NCBI RefSeq assembly: GCF_015689195.1
Contig: NZ_CP065044.1
Coordinates: 3,968,001-4,032,000 of the forward strand
Direction: 5' to 3'
DNA: 64,000 nucleotides
DNA from: Pectobacterium aroidearum
GTDB lineage: Bacteria > Pseudomonadota > Gammaproteobacteria > Enterobacterales > Enterobacteriaceae
Positions within the stretch are counted from its first letter, which is position 1, and each line of letters begins with the position of its first letter. Positions 15,629-23,858 of the stretch are shown here, one piece after another. The translations under genes were made by a program, and so were the position numbers. Under the pieces are notes generated by a model. That model had not been told where the DNA came from. It made no database searches and was given only the letters and a program-made list of their open reading frames with translations.

Positions 15629-16042
15629 ATGAATCTAAATATTACTAACACACCAGATTCAGATGAAGAAGAATTTGTAATAGCAAGTCTTTGGAAACAC
15701 AATGAACAGTTCGATGCTGTTGATATTTCCCCCTTATTTTTAAATTTCAAAGATGATGAAAATAATATTATCGCAGGGCTAATATCCAGAACCTGGTGGG
15801 GTGCATTAGAAGTTCAATATCTTTGGGTTAGTGAGAAGCATCGTAAAAGTGGGCTTGGCCGTCAACTCATGCAGGCTGCTGAAAAAGAAGCATTAAATCG
15901 TGGCTGTCATTTGGCTTACGTGGACACATTCGAGTTTCAGGCCAAAGGATTCTACGAAAAACTGGGATACAGAGAATATGGAAACCTGCCGGGATATGCG
16001 CACAAGCATACTCGACATTACTTAGCCAAATTGATCCGTTGA
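15629..16042 (+). CDS. GNAT family N-acetyltransferase
   Basis: A 137-residue protein with the acetyl-CoA-binding motif A of the GNAT fold (VSEKHRKSGLGRQLMQAAEKEA, split here around residues 67-88) and the C-terminal FYEKLGYREYG element. The substrate is not predictable. It precedes a PAS-LuxR regulator by 29 bases on the same strand, so they may be cotranscribed. Confidence 0.85.
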   Translation: MNLNITNTPDSDEEEFVIASLWKHNEQFDAVDISPLFLNFKDDENNIIAGLISRTWWGALEVQYLWVSEKHRKSGLGRQLMQAAEKEALNRGCHLAYVDTFEFQAKGFYEKLGYREYGNLPGYAHKHTRHYLAKLIR

Positions 16043-16071
16043 ATTAATTCCAGCCTATTAAGGAGGGCAGG

Positions 16072-16761
16072 ATGCCATCATCACAAGAAAACATGACTGA
16101 TTATATTCGCAATCTGATTATTATGATGGAGTGTTTAAATGAACCATGGGGTATTAAAGACTTATCATCACGCCATGTTTATATGAATAAAGCCGCTTAC
16201 CTTTATACCAATACGCCAATGCGTTTTGATATTGAAGGACGGCTAGATGATGAATTTCCTGCCAGCTGGGCGGAGCTTTCTGACGATCTAAAAGAACATG
16301 ACAGGCTTACAGAGAATAGTGAACAGAGAGTTACTGTCATCGAAACACATTATTGGTATGGAAAGAAAACGCTGACCCCCTTTGTCAGCGAAAAGATCCC
16401 CATCTTTGATGAAAATAAGCTCTGCATTGGTACAATATGGAATGCCAGACCTCTGGATACGCGGTCTCCGCTTATATATATAGACCAAAAGAAGCCAACC
16501 ACGTTGCAAACGGACTTAACGACCAGCATATTCACGAAATCAGAGTTAGATATTATATTCCTGATATTGCAGCGACTTTCAAATAAAGAAATCGCCAGAA
16601 AAATGAACGTATCACCAAAAACAATAGAGAACAGAATATATAATATGTATCAAAAGGCAGAAGCACATTCTTTACCTCAATTTGAGGAATTTTGTCGCCA
16701 TCTTGGAATCGATGGTTATATACCTAACTCTCTCATCGAGAAAGGCATTCAATTTATATAA
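16072..16761 (+). CDS. PAS-like sensor with LuxR-type DNA-binding domain
   Basis: A 229-residue regulator. The N-terminal half (residues about 15-130) has a PAS-like pattern (EPWGIKDLSSRHVYMNKAA). The C-terminal part is a LuxR/FixJ helix-turn-helix with TKSELDIIFLILQRLSNKEI and VSPKTIENRIYNMYQKA. It is not an acyl-homoserine-lactone receptor: the characteristic ligand-domain residues are absent. AGGAGGG lies just before ATG 16072. It is followed after 14 bases by an NCS1 permease, so it may control uptake of that permease's substrate. Confidence 0.8.
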   Translation: MPSSQENMTDYIRNLIIMMECLNEPWGIKDLSSRHVYMNKAAYLYTNTPMRFDIEGRLDDEFPASWAELSDDLKEHDRLTENSEQRVTVIETHYWYGKKTLTPFVSEKIPIFDENKLCIGTIWNARPLDTRSPLIYIDQKKPTTLQTDLTTSIFTKSELDIIFLILQRLSNKEIARKMNVSPKTIENRIYNMYQKAEAHSLPQFEEFCRHLGIDGYIPNSLIEKGIQFI

Positions 16762-16775
16762 GAGAACATATCCAT

Positions 16776-18092
16776 ATGGAAAAAATAGATGATTACCCCG
16801 TCAGCCGTGTTCCGCTGAGTGTCCGGCTGCCTTTTTTAAATGTGGCATTAGTCCACATCGGCATGTTAACTGCCCTGGACCAGTTTATGTTAGGTGCAGT
16901 ACTCGGCCATTCCATGACGCTAAGCCAGGCATTTCTCGCCATCTTTATTGGTAGCGCCATTTTTGGTGTGGTGACCGTGGGACTGGGCTACGCGGGAATG
17001 AAAGAAGGTATGTCCGGCAGCCTGCTCGCACGCTGGTGCGGATTTGGCCGTATAGGTTCCGTCCTGATTGGGCTGGTCATCGCCGTTAGCCTCATCGGCT
17101 GGTTCGGCGTCCAGAATGCCGTATTCGCCAAAGCGCTCAATTTCGCAATGGCAGATAAACTCGGTTTTAGCTGGTCCGCCGCCCTGTCCGGCATTGCGCT
17201 GACGCTGCTGGTTGCCTTTGGTTTCAGGGCATTACGCTTCACAGCCAAAATTGCCGTACCGATGTTTGTTATTGTCGTCGGCTATATTTCGATCATGACG
17301 CTCTCCGGTCACAATATTGCTGAACTGATCGCCTCGGCACCTAACGGCGCGGCGATTTCGATTAGCGCAGGGGCGACGATGGTCGTAGGCGGCTGCATCG
17401 TCGCCAGCTTAATTACGCCTGATATGACGCGCTATTCCCAAACAGGAAAACACGTTTTCTGGATGACGATGCTGTCGATTATCGTCGGGGAATTTATTGT
17501 GAATGGCCTTGCCATCATTATCGCCCGCGCGCTCAATACCGCAGACGTTGTGACGATCATGTCCCAGGCGGCTGGTGGCATCGGGCTGATTGCCGTCATA
17601 TTTTCGACATTGAGAGTGAACGATATCAACCTGTATTCTTCCTCTTTAGGAATCGCCAATGCCATAGAAGGCGTCACGGGGAAAAAATTACGCTATGTCT
17701 CGATCACGCTGGTGATTGGCCTCATTGGCACCCTGCTTTCCGTCGCCGGTATTCTGGATCGCTTTATCGATTTCCTGACGCTATTAGGCGTGCTGTTCCC
17801 CCCAATTATCGGCGTGATGCTGGTTGATTATTATATTTTACGAACCCACAGGGCGCTGCTCGATGCCAGTCGTGCCGAAGGTCAATTACCTGACAGCGCA
17901 CAAACACCGCTGATTGGCTGGCCTGCTATTATTGCCAGCATTGTCGGTGCTATCGTTGGATTAGCCTTTGAGTGGGGCGTACCGGCGTTTAATTCGATAC
18001 TGGCAGCCAGCCTGATTTATTGGATAATAAAGCATTACACCAATAACCATGTGTATTTTAGGAAACCAGAGCATAACAAAAATTTAAAATGA
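16776..18092 (+). CDS. NCS1 family cytosine/purine-type permease
   Basis: A 438-residue inner-membrane transporter with about 12 hydrophobic segments. It resembles CodB-type NCS1 permeases, which import nucleobases or related rings with protons or sodium. No deaminase or hydrolase gene is adjacent, so the substrate is open. It begins 14 bases after the PAS-LuxR gene and ends before a strong terminator, so it is the last gene of this small operon. Confidence 0.82.
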   Translation: MEKIDDYPVSRVPLSVRLPFLNVALVHIGMLTALDQFMLGAVLGHSMTLSQAFLAIFIGSAIFGVVTVGLGYAGMKEGMSGSLLARWCGFGRIGSVLIGLVIAVSLIGWFGVQNAVFAKALNFAMADKLGFSWSAALSGIALTLLVAFGFRALRFTAKIAVPMFVIVVGYISIMTLSGHNIAELIASAPNGAAISISAGATMVVGGCIVASLITPDMTRYSQTGKHVFWMTMLSIIVGEFIVNGLAIIIARALNTADVVTIMSQAAGGIGLIAVIFSTLRVNDINLYSSSLGIANAIEGVTGKKLRYVSITLVIGLIGTLLSVAGILDRFIDFLTLLGVLFPPIIGVMLVDYYILRTHRALLDASRAEGQLPDSAQTPLIGWPAIIASIVGAIVGLAFEWGVPAFNSILAASLIYWIIKHYTNNHVYFRKPEHNKNLK

Positions 18093-18126
18093 AATAGGTA
18101 ACAAGATAAAATTCATCTATAATCCA

Positions 18127-18152
18127 ATCGGCCTCTTTTCATAGAGGCCGAT
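18127..18152 (+). terminator. Terminator after the NCS1 permease
   Basis: Ten-base arms ATCGGCCTCT and AGAGGCCGAT enclose a six-base loop, followed by ATATTTTTA. Confidence 0.85.
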
Positions 18153-18180
18153 ATATTTTTACTTAAGCAAATTAGCTCCT

Positions 18181-18240
18181 GAATAATTCAAGCTGCATTC
18201 AGGCGGTGACGCTCAGGCAGTTTGAAGCATGACGGATATA
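18181..18240. repeat. Degraded copy of the TATACCC-ended repeat
   Basis: The segment shares AATAATTCAAG, a CAGGCGG core, TTTGAAGCATGACGGATATA and overall order with the short copy at 53502-53564, but its left TATACCC end is lost. It lies in the svx upstream region. Confidence 0.5.
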
Positions 18241-18340
18241 GGCCATGATGGCCTTGGGATGGGCCTTATCTATCAACGAGAAATTCCCTCTCGCGAAATA
18301 ATAAGGCTGATTAGCAATATTCATGCTAGGAAAAGGATTT

Positions 18341-20212
18341 ATGCCAAAAATAAAAACACTTCTCACGCCATTAAACTGTCTGCTTGTTTTAAGCGGTGCC
18401 TTAATGGTCAATACGGCAAACGCCGCCGAGGCTTGTGTCGCGGGTAACTGGCAGGTGGATAATATTGTCAATGATATGCCACCAGTGAAATACCAGACTG
18501 AGCACTTTGCCTTACGTTGGAATAATAACGACGTTAATCTTAATGATGCTATTTCTGCCGGACAGAAGCTGGAAAAAATTTGGGATAAGTATATTAACCA
18601 AATTCAATTCCCCGAGCCTTATTGCAAGCAGACGGTCAAATATAAGGCCAGCATCCATATCGATCCTACTTTTGGGTTGAACGGCGGTATTATTCCGAGC
18701 AGCGGTAACATGGGGATGTGGATTTCCCCTCCAGCCCTTAAAGAAATTGGCGGATTAGCACACGAATTCGCCCATGCGCTGCAAGGGCAAACCGGTGGTT
18801 TCCAGAGTCAAGGCGGCGATAACTATGTTGGCTGGATTTGGGAGTCGCACGCTGACTGGATGTCCAATCAGTTAGATGAATTGCGCAGTACATCAGCTTT
18901 ATGCTCAGAAATGCTGGTCAACTATCCGCATCTCTATCTGGGGTCAACACGCGACCGTTATTGTAACTGGCAGTTTATGGAATATCTGAAGAATCGCTTT
19001 GGCTATGGCATCATCAACGATATGTGGTCAAAAGCGCCAAAATCAGGTGACAGTACCCAATCTACCGTCGATCCTTTCTCGGTATTGCGTACTAACATGG
19101 GGTGGAGCCAGTCTGAATTCAACGATGTTTTCGGCGACTGGGCGATGCACAACGTTAACTGGGATTATATCGATCCAGACGGTTTTGACCGCGGCCGTGT
19201 TTACCGTTCAATCTACGGCGGCTATGGTGCGGTACAACCCTCGCTCAGCAATGCCGATCGCCTGCTGAGAACCACAACGCTTGAACCCGTTGTCGGTGCC
19301 AGCGCTAACCTGCGACGCTTCTCCGTACCGTTCGATCAAGCTCCGCAACAACTGGGCTACAACATCGTTCGGCTAATCCCGGAAAGCGGCGCGACGAAAA
19401 TCACCGTCAAATTCCGCGGTATGGTCCAAAGCAAACCTGCGATTACCCGTTTCCCGGGGCTGAAGAACGACCCATCAACCATACCACAGCCTAATTCCGA
19501 CTGGCGCTGGGGGATTGTTGCTATCGGTGCGGACGGCGTTTCTCGCTACAGTGAACTACAACGCGGCGCGTCTGCCACGGTGAAAAACTTCACTATCCGT
19601 CAGGACGATCGCGGCATTTACATGGTGGTCATGGGGACACCGTCGCAAATGCAGAAGATCAAGTGGGATCAGGCTTACTACTCTCTGTATCGCTACCCGT
19701 GGATGGCAGATTTCACCGGCGTCTGGCCGGAAGGTAGTCAGCCAGGCGCACCGAATCCAACCGATAACGGCTCTCGCCATCCAAACGGCGGTGGCTGGGT
19801 TTCCAACGCCGCAAATGTCGCTCCTACTGCGTACGTTGGGCCTTATGCTCGCGTCATCGGAGGGACCGTGAGGGATAACGCTAGAATTGAAGATCGAGCG
19901 ACGATCCTTAACGGAACGGTAGAAGGACGCGCAGTTGTTAGCGGCCTAACAGTGTTACAAGGTAATACCGTTGTACGTGATAACGCGCGACTGCATACGA
20001 TCTTCAAGGGGCCAGGCGCCTTTGAACATGGGATCGTTCTGTCAGGCAATGCACAAATGCGTGGAGATGCAGAAATTCGCGGCGTTTCCGCGTCGCAGGG
20101 TGTGTTCTATGGCTTTATTGATGGAAATGAAGTCAAAAGCAGCGCAGCCGGTGCTTACCTGACCGAAGCCGTGCCAGAAGTGACGGCCGTTCCGGTCTAC
20201 AGCACGAAGTAA
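18341..20212 (+). CDS. svx: Svx-like secreted zinc metalloprotease
   Basis: A 623-residue exported protein with a Sec signal peptide (cleaved near ANA-AEA). The zinc-protease motif HEFAH occurs at residues 141-145 within GGLAHEFAHALQG. Overall sequence agrees with Svx of Pectobacterium atrosepticum, a type II-secreted virulence protein related to AvrXca of Xanthomonas, and the assignment to that family is from memory. The C-terminal third contains a repetitive beta-helix-like stretch (ARVIGGTVRDNARIEDRATI, VSGLTVLQGNTVVRDNARL). ATG 18341 has AAAGGA before it; ATG 18323 does not. It is probably a plant-cell-wall or apoplast-acting factor; the target is unknown. Confidence 0.85.
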   Translation: MPKIKTLLTPLNCLLVLSGALMVNTANAAEACVAGNWQVDNIVNDMPPVKYQTEHFALRWNNNDVNLNDAISAGQKLEKIWDKYINQIQFPEPYCKQTVKYKASIHIDPTFGLNGGIIPSSGNMGMWISPPALKEIGGLAHEFAHALQGQTGGFQSQGGDNYVGWIWESHADWMSNQLDELRSTSALCSEMLVNYPHLYLGSTRDRYCNWQFMEYLKNRFGYGIINDMWSKAPKSGDSTQSTVDPFSVLRTNMGWSQSEFNDVFGDWAMHNVNWDYIDPDGFDRGRVYRSIYGGYGAVQPSLSNADRLLRTTTLEPVVGASANLRRFSVPFDQAPQQLGYNIVRLIPESGATKITVKFRGMVQSKPAITRFPGLKNDPSTIPQPNSDWRWGIVAIGADGVSRYSELQRGASATVKNFTIRQDDRGIYMVVMGTPSQMQKIKWDQAYYSLYRYPWMADFTGVWPEGSQPGAPNPTDNGSRHPNGGGWVSNAANVAPTAYVGPYARVIGGTVRDNARIEDRATILNGTVEGRAVVSGLTVLQGNTVVRDNARLHTIFKGPGAFEHGIVLSGNAQMRGDAEIRGVSASQGVFYGFIDGNEVKSSAAGAYLTEAVPEVTAVPVYSTK

Positions 20213-20226
20213 TATCACCACAAAAA

Positions 20227-20270
20227 GGGGAACCGGCTCAGAACCATGTTACGTCGGTTCTCGGATCCCC
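20227..20270 (+). terminator. Long imperfect stem-loop after svx
   Basis: Outer arms GGGG and CCCC, then CCG/CGG and GAACC/GGTTC, enclose a loop of about ten bases. It starts 15 bases after the svx stop. The following ATAAATA is not a strong T-tract, so it may be a terminator or a 3' stabilising structure. Confidence 0.5.
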
Positions 20271-20278
20271 ATAAATAC

Positions 20279-20303
20279 ACAGGCCGCCATGATGGCGGCC
20301 TGT
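20279..20303 (-). terminator. Stem-loop downstream of the azuC-like gene
   Basis: Ten-base arms ACAGGCCGCC and GGCGGCCTGT with a five-base loop. On the minus strand it begins 18 bases after the small gene's stop codon and is followed by GTATTTAT, so it is the likely 3' end of that transcript; it could also act for svx from the other side. Confidence 0.65.
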
Positions 20304-20320
20304 TTGCATAGCACAGATTC

Positions 20321-20407
20321 TTAGAATAGTGCGCCAGGCGGCACGTCTTTATAAGTATTCAGGTAAGCCGCCAGCATTTTTTTAAAGAAGTTACGCACTT
20401 TTTTCAC
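20321..20407 (-). CDS. azuC: AzuC-like 28-residue small protein
   Basis: A tiny frame reading VKKVRNFFKKMLAAYLNTY followed by KDVPPGALF. E. coli AzuC is also 28 residues, with a basic amphipathic N-terminal half and the ending KDVPPGNMFR; the KDVPPG motif sits at nearly the same position. AzuC is a membrane-associated amphipathic protein reported to act with glycerol-3-phosphate dehydrogenase GlpD, and its transcript also acts as an sRNA (AzuCR). The start is uncertain: GTG 20407 fits the family length, whereas GTG 20398 has AAGGTG at ideal distance. A promoter and a CRP core lie upstream and a stem-loop lies downstream. Confidence 0.8.
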   Translation of the reverse strand: MKKVRNFFKKMLAAYLNTYKDVPPGALF

Positions 20408-20490
20408 CTTGGTTTTACTTAGCTCGTTATTCTAATGACGCGATGGGATTGCTCTTGTCTTACTGGCAGCGACCTGCCTTATGGCGATGA

Positions 20491-20520
20491 ATTGTACAAG
20501 CCTTGTTGAGCAAAAGCCAA
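20491..20520 (-). promoter_or_regulatory. Predicted promoter of the azuC-like gene
   Basis: On the minus strand, TTGGCT (20520-20515) and TACAAT (20496-20491) are separated by 18 bases. A transcript starting near 20484 would have a leader of about 80 bases before the small frame. Confidence 0.5.
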
Positions 20521-20525
20521 TTTTT

Positions 20526-20541
20526 TGTGATGAACATCACA
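20526..20541. promoter_or_regulatory. CRP-binding core between azuC-like gene and mdtG
   Basis: TGTGA-N6-TCACA is a perfect match to the CRP core (TGTGATGAACATCACA). Its centre lies about 50 bases upstream of the predicted azuC transcript start and 260 bases before mdtG. Control of azuC by CRP fits the carbon-source regulation reported in E. coli. Confidence 0.7.
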
Positions 20542-20634
20542 CAACGAAATTCACCGACACTCTTTCTCCAACCCGCGCACTACTCACGCTGATTTTCTTT
20601 TGTTGCGAATCATTACCCTCAGTGACCAATACGC

Positions 20635-20656
20635 CATGAGCTATGCTATGCTCATG
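20635..20656. other. Inverted repeat upstream of mdtG
   Basis: Seven-base arms CATGAGC and GCTCATG separated by eight bases, about 140 bases before the mdtG start. It may be an operator. No T-tract is present. Confidence 0.3.
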
Positions 20657-20792
20657 ATGAAAGACGAAATTTTAGTCACTGCACGTTATTAATTGAGCGC
20701 TATTCACTGTCAGCTAGCACACTTTTCTTCACGCGCAGTCACCACGGTTTCGCCATTGGTTATTCGCTGATGAAGGCTCGTTCCGACCCCCC

Positions 20793-21986
20793 ATGGAAAC
20801 CTGGAAACTTAACCTCTTCTCTGCCTGGCTGGGATGCTTTTTCACCGGGCTGGCCATGAGCCAGATATTGCCCTTCCTGCCACTGTACATTGAGCAGCTT
20901 GGCGTTAATTCGCACGAGTCACTAAGTCTGTGGTCCGGTTTGATCTTCAGCTCGTCTTTTCTGATCTCTGCCATCGTTGCGCCACTGTGGGGAAGCCTCG
21001 CCGACCGTAAAGGCCGCAAGCTCATGCTGCTGCGCGCCGCACTCGGTATGGCGATCGTGATGTCGTTGCAAGGGCTGGCAACCAACGTGTGGCACTTGTT
21101 CATCCTGCGCTCGCTCATGGGGCTGACCTCTGGATACATTCCCAATGCAATGGCGCTGATCGCCTCGCAGGTTCCGCGTGAAAAAAGCGGCTGGGCGCTG
21201 GGCATGTTATCGACCGGGCAGATCGCCGGCGTCATTCTCGGCCCCTTATTCGGCGGCTTTATGGCCGACTACATCGGGCTACGCATCGTCTTTTTCATCA
21301 CCGGCGGCATGCTGTTTACCAGCTTCCTGATTACGCTTTTCGCGATTAAAGAAAGCGTGGTTAAAGTCACCAAAGAGAATCGACTCAGCGGGAAAGCCGT
21401 CTTTGCTTCCCTGCCGTATCCGGCACTGATTATCTGTCTGTTTATTACGACGATGATGATCCAGATGGCGAACGGCTCCATCAGCCCTATTCTAACGCTG
21501 TTCATCCGCGATCTGACGCCCGGCACGGACAACATTGCCTTTATCAGCGGCGTGATTGCCGCCATTCCCGGCGTATCCGCTCTGCTATCTGCACCGCGTC
21601 TGGGTCGTTTAGGTGACCGGATCGGCGCACACCGCGTCCTGATCGCCGCACTGGCGATCAGCGTACTACTGTTCCTCGTCATGGCAGCGGTACAAAGCCC
21701 CACCCAACTCGGTATCCTGCGCTTTATGTTGGGCTTTGCCGATGGCGCGCTGATGCCAACCGTACAGGCGCTATTAGTCAAATACAGTAGCCAGCAGGTA
21801 ACAGGCCGAATCTTCGGCTATAACCAGTCATTTATGTATCTGGGTAACGTACTGGGGCCGCTAGTCGGTTCCGGTGTGTCCGCCATGATGGGATTCCGCT
21901 GGGTTTTCATCGTCACCGCCTTCCTGGTGCTGTGCAACACGCTACAGCTCTTTTTCGCCTTCAGGAAACCACGCGGAAAAGGATAG
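20793..21986 (+). CDS. mdtG: MdtG-like multidrug efflux MFS transporter
   Basis: A 397-residue protein with about 12 membrane segments that aligns well with E. coli MdtG (YceE), a proton-driven drug exporter. Landmarks are [20 protein letters not shown], the MFS motif [13 protein letters not shown], and [20 protein letters not shown]. The N-terminus is some ten residues shorter than in E. coli and the ATG at 20793 lacks a ribosome-binding site; no better in-frame start was seen. In E. coli, mdtG is controlled by MarA/SoxS/Rob; no such box was identified here with confidence. Confidence 0.87.
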
Positions 21987-22128
21987 CTCCCCCTCCCTAA
22001 GCAACGATATGCCATGAAAATCGCATCTTTCCTTGCAAAATCAGGAGTGCGATCACAGAACTGACATACCTATTATCTATGCTCCGACGATACTTCTGTC
22101 AAATCGACTCATATCAAAAGAGCCCCCC

Positions 22129-23490
22129 ATGAAACACACGTTGTTAGCACTGCTGGTTGCCGGATTTTTGCCGTTCAGCGTTCAGGCCGAAGGAGAAAAA
22201 GTGACGCGTTATGTCGTCACCTTCCCGGCCAGCGATCATGTTTCATATCAGGGCAAATTCGCCAAAAATTTTCCCAACGCTCTGCCTGTCGGTATCGGCT
22301 CTGGTCTTTACTTCACGGGCAAACAAGGCGATGACCTAATGTTCACTACCATCACCGATCGTGGCCCGAACGCCGATGCGCCGTTGGTCGGAGAGAAAGA
22401 GGCCAAAATCTTCGCTAGCCCCGATTATGCACCGCTAATTATGGATATTCGGGTGAGCGCGAAAGCTGCCGAAGCCATAAACCCACGCTCGCTGCACGAT
22501 GCCGAGGGCAACATCACCGGCCTGCCACTGCCTGCGGATTTTATCGGTACCACCAACGAAGTGGCGCTGAATGACGCGTTACAACCGCTCAGCACCAGCC
22601 AGCGCGGGCTGGACACCGAAGGGATCACGCCGGATGGTAAAGGTGGCTTCTGGCTGTGTGACGAATACGGCCCGTTCCTGATCCATATTGATGCCAGCGG
22701 GAAAATTCTGCAAAAATTTGGGCCAACGCCTACGGGCAATGAGCACTCCGTTGCCAGCGGCTTACCAAACATCATCAAGTGGCGTCAGCCGAATCGGGGC
22801 TTTGAAGGGCTGACTCGCCTGCCGGACAGTACGATTGTCATGGCCGTGCAAAGTACGCTGGATATCGACGGCAAAACCAAAAACAAAGCGCAGTTTACGC
22901 GTCTGGTGATGTTTAACCCGGAAACGCAAACCAGCCGCATGGTGGGCTACCCCATCAACATCGACAGCTATAAGAAAGCAAAAGATGCCAAGATTGGCGA
23001 TATCGTCGCTCTGGATAATCAACGCATCCTGCTGGTCGAGCAAGGTGCGGATAAAGACAAGCAGATGCAGAATCGCATCTATCTGGTCGATCTCAGTAAA
23101 GCGAGTGACCTGACGCCATTCGATGCCGATGGTAAATCGCCAGAATTTGACGACCTCGCGCAGTTGGAAAAGCGCGGTATAACGCTAGCGCACAAGCAGG
23201 AGTTGGTGGATCTGCGTAAGCTCGGCTGGCAGCAGGAGAAAGTAGAAGGTCTGGCGCTGGTGGATAAACAAACGCTGGCCGTCATTAACGACAACGACTT
23301 TGGCCTGCAATCTGTTCTGCACTCTCCCGTGAAAGCAAAAGACAAAGCGGACGACTATCAGGTCACCGCCGACGGCAAACTCACGCGAGACGGAAAGGCG
23401 GTCGATACGACGTTGGAAATCAAACCGTTGCAGAAACCAGAAGCCGATAACGAGCTGTGGTTGATTCATCTGGCTCAACCGCTGAAATAG
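22129..23490 (+). CDS. Exported esterase-like/phytase-like family protein
   Basis: A 453-residue protein with a clear signal peptide (cleaved near VQA-EGE). It shows the repeated blade motifs of the 'esterase-like activity of phytase' family, such as DTEGITPDGKGGFWLCDEYGP and RGFEGLTRLPDSTIVMAVQS, consistent with a periplasmic beta-propeller. The enzymatic role is not established for this family; phosphoester or phytate cleavage is a guess. ATG 22129 follows AAAAGAG and begins the signal peptide; a frame extending to 22033 is not supported. Confidence 0.75.
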   Translation: MKHTLLALLVAGFLPFSVQAEGEKVTRYVVTFPASDHVSYQGKFAKNFPNALPVGIGSGLYFTGKQGDDLMFTTITDRGPNADAPLVGEKEAKIFASPDYAPLIMDIRVSAKAAEAINPRSLHDAEGNITGLPLPADFIGTTNEVALNDALQPLSTSQRGLDTEGITPDGKGGFWLCDEYGPFLIHIDASGKILQKFGPTPTGNEHSVASGLPNIIKWRQPNRGFEGLTRLPDSTIVMAVQSTLDIDGKTKNKAQFTRLVMFNPETQTSRMVGYPINIDSYKKAKDAKIGDIVALDNQRILLVEQGADKDKQMQNRIYLVDLSKASDLTPFDADGKSPEFDDLAQLEKRGITLAHKQELVDLRKLGWQQEKVEGLALVDKQTLAVINDNDFGLQSVLHSPVKAKDKADDYQVTADGKLTRDGKAVDTTLEIKPLQKPEADNELWLIHLAQPLK

Positions 23491-23858
23491 CGATTTCAAT
23501 AAGATAGCGCGCAGCATGGGTCTCCATCGGAGGCCCATGCTAAACGCCCCAAAAAGGCTGATATAACACGCTACGCGCATTGGTTTTCATACAAAAATCA
23601 ATGCGTGCTTCCCATACCTCTCCGCAATACAGATCAAAACTTTTTCTAGCACGATTTCCCTCGACACTTCAATAAAGAAAGCCTTATTTTCAGCACACGG
23701 TATGCACCACAGATCAAAAAATACAGATACAGAGCAACAAGGGAATCACACCGCCTTTTTCCGTTGCTTAATAATCGACAGGTTATGGAAAACCGGCACG
23801 GTGTTGGTAATCGATGAAGTGATTCAACACACATGTTAAATAGGGAAGTTAAACTGCC
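23491..23858. other. Intergenic region with two stem-loops
   Basis: About 370 bases without a credible gene. One stem-loop at 23514-23540 (GCATGGG...CCCATGC) follows the phytase-like gene and may end its transcript, although no T-tract follows. A second at 23576-23606 pairs CGCATTG with CAATGCG around a TTTT/AAAA inner stem. The lyase promoter should lie in the right half; none was defined. Confidence 0.4.

Follow-up and report, generated by a model that had tools for sequence, protein, structure and literature searches.

The azuC locus and its reading frame

The window, by which we mean the whole analysed stretch of 64,000 nucleotides from Pectobacterium aroidearum, contains a minus-strand open reading frame at 20321-20407 whose product has the C-terminal end KDVPPGALF, as a previous reading made from the letters alone (the sequence-only reading) had described. 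Judged by its sequence, the region 20321-20541 together with its flanks is the azuC of Pectobacterium and thus a genuine member of a family that is already known. The NCBIfam profile NF033642 ('stress response protein AzuC') gave the frame 57 bits (positions 1-26 of 26; curated cut-off 30 bits), and no other match turned up in this genome at E ≤10. The product is very short and basic and carries K-D-V-P-P near its C-terminal end, which are traits of the AzuC family; KNVPPG replaces KDVPPG in five of the 24 Pectobacterium loci. Two plus-strand genes flank the frame, namely svx (18323-20212) and mdtG (20793-21986), names which the sequence-only reading had assigned. azuC adjoins both in 24/24 Pectobacterium loci, which agrees with the proposed setting.

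The sequence-only reading had made its claim depend on conservation of the frame in related genomes, and AzuC was found over the cut-off in 24 of 25 Pectobacterium genomes. Among 23 copies (231 differing pairs) the mean dN of azuC was 0.0117 and the mean dS 0.161, corresponding to a dN/dS of about 0.07, and a sample of 60 pairs of mdtG gave means of 0.0118 and 0.447. This comparison indicates that the AzuC protein is kept and that synonymous change in azuC is low as well. By these substitution rates azuC is under purifying selection, and the kinship with E. coli AzuC is backed by the profile score, the occurrence in the genus and the ratio of dN to dS. The frame is broken in Pectobacterium sp. 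PL152 (L054), where svx and mdtG also each match in two pieces. Assembly errors are therefore a likely cause, rather than gene decay, and this locus was left out of the substitution rates, the codon counts and the 23-sequence alignment.

It is very improbable that the locus is something other than azuC, with a frame that arose by chance, a CRP site that serves mdtG on the plus strand and a hairpin that ends svx. Such an arrangement would suit the nearly symmetrical CRP core and the start of mdtG, which lies 252 bp beyond this core on the plus strand. However, the NF033642 score and the purifying selection rule out a chance frame, and the CRP core precedes azuC even at loci, K-12 among them, whose neighbourhood yielded no mdtG.

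The amphipathic N-terminal half that had been proposed for the protein found no statistical support, as the hydrophobic moment of the first 16 residues was 0.37 (shuffle P 0.18). For the first 18 residues of K-12 AzuC the moment was 0.50 (shuffle P 0.035). The length of 28 codons had likewise to be revised, since it rests on an upstream GTG at 20407 which adds positions 20399-20407 to the coding sequence. We compared the start codons of 31 loci, comprising 24 from Pectobacterium, that of Samsonia (L065) and those of six relatives, here called group C (L075-L079, L082). At the position of 20398 the codon is GTG in 29 loci and ATG in two and hence a start in 31/31, whereas the position of 20407 holds an in-frame start in 26/31 (25 GTG, one ATG). 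Of the other five loci, L034 and L065 are out of frame at this position, and L076, L082 and L079 read GTA, CCA and GAA, respectively. Moreover, a Shine-Dalgarno-like AAGGTG (20405-20410, minus strand), read directly from the sequence and present in most of the 31 loci, precedes GTG 20398 by 6 nt. In one locus, L053, the upstream position reads ATG, in keeping with 28 codons, and the GG of the Shine-Dalgarno-like stretch is lost. Taken together, these sequences make GTG 20398 the most likely translation start and preferable to GTG 20407, so that the coding sequence would comprise 25 codons and the stop (20321-20398, minus strand), compared with 28 residues in E. coli AzuC.

At the level of the GTDB family, a match over the AzuC cut-off was obtained in 46 of 149 genomes, and one at E ≤0.01 in 49. 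E. coli alone gave a match among 14 control genomes; of the 5426 complete genomes of this species, 5367 carry an azuC-like stretch. A pattern scan for the azuC type returned 12 stretches, which belong to P. zantedeschiae, P. carotovorum, P. versatile, P. polonicum, P. fontis, P. peruviense, P. brasiliense, P. betavasculorum, two further Pectobacterium species, Samsonia erythrinae and Candidatus Sodalis endolongispinus. L086 and L087, which are under the cut-off and not AzuC-like, were left out, as were the duplicates L001 and L056. A genome listed as the same species (G152) has no azuC. Apart from 63 bases, it gave no match to window positions 16000-22127 (svx, azuC and mdtG), and positions 22128-23489 were matched at 88%. 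In G172 (L172; also L089 and L093) about 6 kb separate the match to positions 16000-21992 from that to 22128-23491, so that this genome has an insertion beyond mdtG.

Among the literature matches listed, no report of azuC in Pectobacterium was found, and no title or abstract start of the papers containing the whole word azuC concerned this genus. The abstract and main text of a small RNA study of P. atrosepticum (PMC4710047) contain none of svx, mdtG, ECA0931, ECA0932, isrB and azuC, and the main text of a transcript map of D. dadantii (PMC9239193) contains none of azuC, mdtG and isrB.

One CRP core upstream of azuC

The perfect CRP core that had been claimed upstream of the frame is present at 20526-20541 on the minus strand (TGTGATGTTCATCACA). 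It is the only TGTGA-N6-TCACA in the 64 kb, where 0.03 would be expected by chance, and it is kept across Pectobacterium with 10/10 core positions in 23 of the 24 loci and 9/10 in L034, whereas the N6 between its halves is variable. The putative transcript start was set at 20484 from the -10 element and by analogy with the annotation of K-12 azuR (1987843-1988001, complement). Relative to this start the core would be centred at about -49.5, as in 17 of the 24 Pectobacterium loci (-48.5 in the other seven), and the 5' leader would extend over 86 nt to GTG 20398 (20399-20484, minus strand), compared with 42 nt in K-12 azuR. The promoter TTGGCT-18-TACAAT of the sequence-only reading is present at 20520-20491 and its two halves fared differently. 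The -10 element (20491-20496) is conserved, with TACAAT in 22/24 and TAGAAT in 2/24 Pectobacterium loci. The -35-like TTGGCT (20515-20520) is poorly conserved, occurring exactly in 3/24, and probably was misread as a -35 element. A promoter scan found one promoter where 1.0 were expected, which is not above chance on its own.

In K-12 the upstream CRP core of azuC is located at -48.5, in the same place as here, and a second site (TGTGATGGTTGTCATA) at -18.5 sits between the -35 and the -10 and covers part of the latter. The position exactly 30 bp on from the upstream core scores 8 to 10 of 10 in 34/34 loci of groups A and B, which comprise K-12 with 28 relatives and five Sodalis-type loci, respectively. 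The corresponding place in the window (20496-20511, minus strand) shows 2/10 matches and is no CRP site; all 24 Pectobacterium loci have at most 4/10 matches there. Defining the E. coli-type azuC promoter as two CRP-like sites 30 bp apart, of which the second covers the core promoter, we found the second site in 0/24 Pectobacterium loci. The score at this position was 0 to 4 in 37/37 loci, namely those of Pectobacterium, Samsonia, group C and group E (L074, L080, L081, L083-L085). Group E comprises a diverged AzuC type with KHVPPG, and its upstream CRP-like sites end in TCAAA and score 9/10.

The gene neighbourhood is split in a way that resembles the division into one-site and two-site loci. 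azuC lies beside mdtG in Pectobacterium, in Samsonia and in 5/6 group C loci and near yecJ in 24/28 group A loci, its neighbours in E. coli being yecR and yecJ; neither mdtG nor yecJ was found beside it in groups B and E. svx adjoins azuC in Samsonia and was not found within 3 kb of it in L075-L078 and L082. These five loci share with Samsonia and P. aroidearum the single CRP site, the adjacent mdtG and the start at the position of 20398. Their protein sequences differ, for example by KDIPPG in four of the five. In a tree built from 31 GlpD rows, one clade (support 100/99) unites the four rows from Pectobacterium with Samsonia and with five of the six from group C, and L079, which has one site, groups with a two-site locus. 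At least three changes between the one-site and the two-site state are needed on this tree, which therefore fits a loss of the second site here or a gain elsewhere.

E. coli AzuCR is reported to be repressed by CRP (PMC8672173). Since the site that overlaps the promoter is absent in all 24 Pectobacterium loci, this control cannot simply be transferred to P. aroidearum, and the promoter sequences suggest that CRP control of azuC has probably changed. CRP would bind about 49 bp upstream of the transcript start, and with the second site missing its effect would probably be weaker than, or opposite in sign to, the repression in E. coli. One may go further and suppose that the azuC promoter differs by lineage, with a fixed 30-bp operator pair in the E. 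coli and Sodalis types and the upstream site alone in Pectobacterium and the lineages closest to it. A CRP-repressed, glucose-responsive gene would thereby come to respond to CRP otherwise, and its transcript would still act at the RNA level, with a set of partners that has changed in part, cadA being absent. We regard this wider proposal as speculative and rather unlikely to hold in full.

Hairpins and a possible constraint on the RNA

Downstream of the stop codon, a non-coding spacer (20307-20320, minus strand) leads to a hairpin of 11 pairs at 20279-20303 on the same strand, a possible terminator with a poor U tail (in the window GTATTTAT; poorer than that of K-12 azuR). The strong 3' hairpin of the sequence-only reading thus exists, with a folding z of -5.56 and a stem kept in 23 sequences, but it lies outside the interval given there, and a terminator scan found one terminator where 1.8 were expected, which is not above chance on its own. 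A second hairpin (20270-20227, followed by T5; feature 20222-20270, minus strand; -20.9 kcal/mol, z -1.93) is a possible second terminator and could be the real transcript end. Regarding the transcript layout known from AzuCR, the -10 and the hairpin are conserved here and the promoter and terminator scans are not above chance. Rfam gave nothing in window positions 18000-23000 up to E 1. Nothing was over the gathering score at the K-12 azuC locus either, so this silence says little.

The fold of 20484-20217 had a z of -4.95. In the consensus fold of 23 sequences the covariation term was -0.83, and two of 46 pairs were changed on both sides. The first of these is in the leader, and the second belongs to the 10 consensus pairs of the 3' hairpin and is changed in two sequences. 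The single fold contained a helix joining the leader to the coding sequence; the consensus fold did not, and the helix was dropped. Invariant positions among the 23 genomes amounted to 29/74 in the leader (20484-20411), 63/75 in the coding sequence, 11/14 in the spacer and 18/25 in the hairpin; the spacer (20320-20307) is thus more conserved than the leader. We also considered the spacer as a pairing seed. Its complement GCATAGCACAGA had 69 matches in 25 genomes compared with three for the reversed pattern. Nine of the 30 loci returned were azuC itself, and 20 of the other 21 (the exception is L148) were coding sequence on the opposite strand with Leu-Cys-Tyr-Ala. The matched coding strands carry the letters of the azuC RNA itself and not their complement. 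Accordingly, the matches do not mark targets, the excess reflects codons, and the seed was rejected.

Among the codons for invariant amino acids that are able to vary, 8/20 vary in azuC, compared with 250/309 in mdtG and 286/342 in svx (Fisher P for the deficit 1.3e-4 and 2.9e-5, respectively). Windows of 24 codons as low as azuC were found in 5/341 cases in mdtG and 0/431 in svx. This low synonymous variation suggests a constraint on the RNA. It would agree with a full dual-function RNA like AzuCR, which encodes AzuC and also base pairs with mRNAs from carbon-metabolic genes, galE for example, translation and pairing being in competition, and the conserved spacer after the stop points in the same direction. 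However, the same pattern could arise in a short gene from the efficiency of translation or the choice of codons, and the consensus fold holds little covariation. azuC may instead be a plain small mRNA that acts through its protein only, its RNA-level conservation stemming from translation or stability. The strong conservation of the protein speaks for this reading, although it leaves unaccounted for a synonymous variation that is half that of the neighbouring genes and a spacer that is kept in spite of being non-coding.

Partner genes and the role of azuC

E. coli AzuCR (azuC b4663, azuR b4434) is described as inhibiting cadA and galE by base pairing, and its protein AzuC as raising the activity of GlpD (PMC8672173). 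GalE is present in 25/25 Pectobacterium genomes. glpD was found in all 30 azuC-bearing genomes chosen for the search and is 76% identical to that of K-12 in P. aroidearum. A CadA orthologue was not found in the P. aroidearum genome; the best match, 38% over residues 113-701, was taken as another decarboxylase.

Pairing was predicted against a null of start regions, drawn for P. aroidearum from 400 kb with guessed starts. With unlimited length very long fuzzy duplexes were obtained (ranks in K-12: cadA 3, galE 103 of 145; in P. aroidearum: galE 77 of 248), and short windows were used instead. Under these, galE ranked 2 of 249 start regions in P. aroidearum, pairing with leader bases 15-34, and glpD 166. 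In K-12, cadA ranked 2 and galE 141 of 146, and as galE is a known target there, the method is weak either way. The predicted galE pairing was examined in 18 of the 23 genomes, as five galE starts were not found by pattern. It reached -15.2 kcal/mol in P. aroidearum and -6.2 to -10.6 kcal/mol in the 17 others, and used the same leader segment in 10/18 genomes, P. aroidearum included. In two relatives galE ranked 51 and 97 of 125. We therefore read the modelled galE pairing as a hint in one genome and not as support. The high rank in P. aroidearum would suit a dual-function RNA, but the weaker pairing in the relatives, the lower rank with unlimited length and the CadA orthologue not being found count against it. 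We consider a dual function of this kind possible, with the balance leaning away from it. No conserved target was found, as would be expected if azuC worked through its protein only, and to this plain mRNA we give slightly better than even chances.

Our preferred explanation for the locus as a whole, which we consider fairly probable, is an azuC gene with a CRP-linked transcript, a 25-residue protein and altered CRP control. A short transcript would start near 20484 from a CRP-linked promoter and end at the hairpin 20303-20279 or at 20270-20227, and translation from GTG 20398 would yield a basic protein of 25 residues. By analogy with E. coli, where AzuC is described as likely peripherally attached to the membrane (PMC7549839), the protein may be located at the membrane and may act on GlpD. 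The two species would thus have in common the protein family (NF033642), a short transcript, the hairpin after the stop, glpD and galE. The number of CRP sites, the neighbouring genes and cadA set them apart. For the E. coli gene it is further reported that ProQ stabilises and Hfq destabilises AzuCR (PMC9977716), that azuC belongs to the small frames with the strongest induction by severe acid (PMC10746267) and that it is raised under glucose, acid, heat, oxidative stress and pressure (PMC6049941). In outline, the locus may also be likened to VcdRP of Vibrio cholerae, a dual-function RNA of carbon metabolism that is described as CRP-repressed and as uniting an RNA with a small protein (PMC8672173), which is an analogue only.

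With azuC in Pectobacterium, a studied gene for a small protein and a small RNA is extended to soft-rot plant pathogens. What deserves further attention is that the loci divide into those with one and those with two CRP sites, and that synonymous variation is low. The division offers a clean natural comparison, in which the same protein stands under a single CRP site or a pair, and the low variation makes a role of the RNA outside E. coli a testable question.
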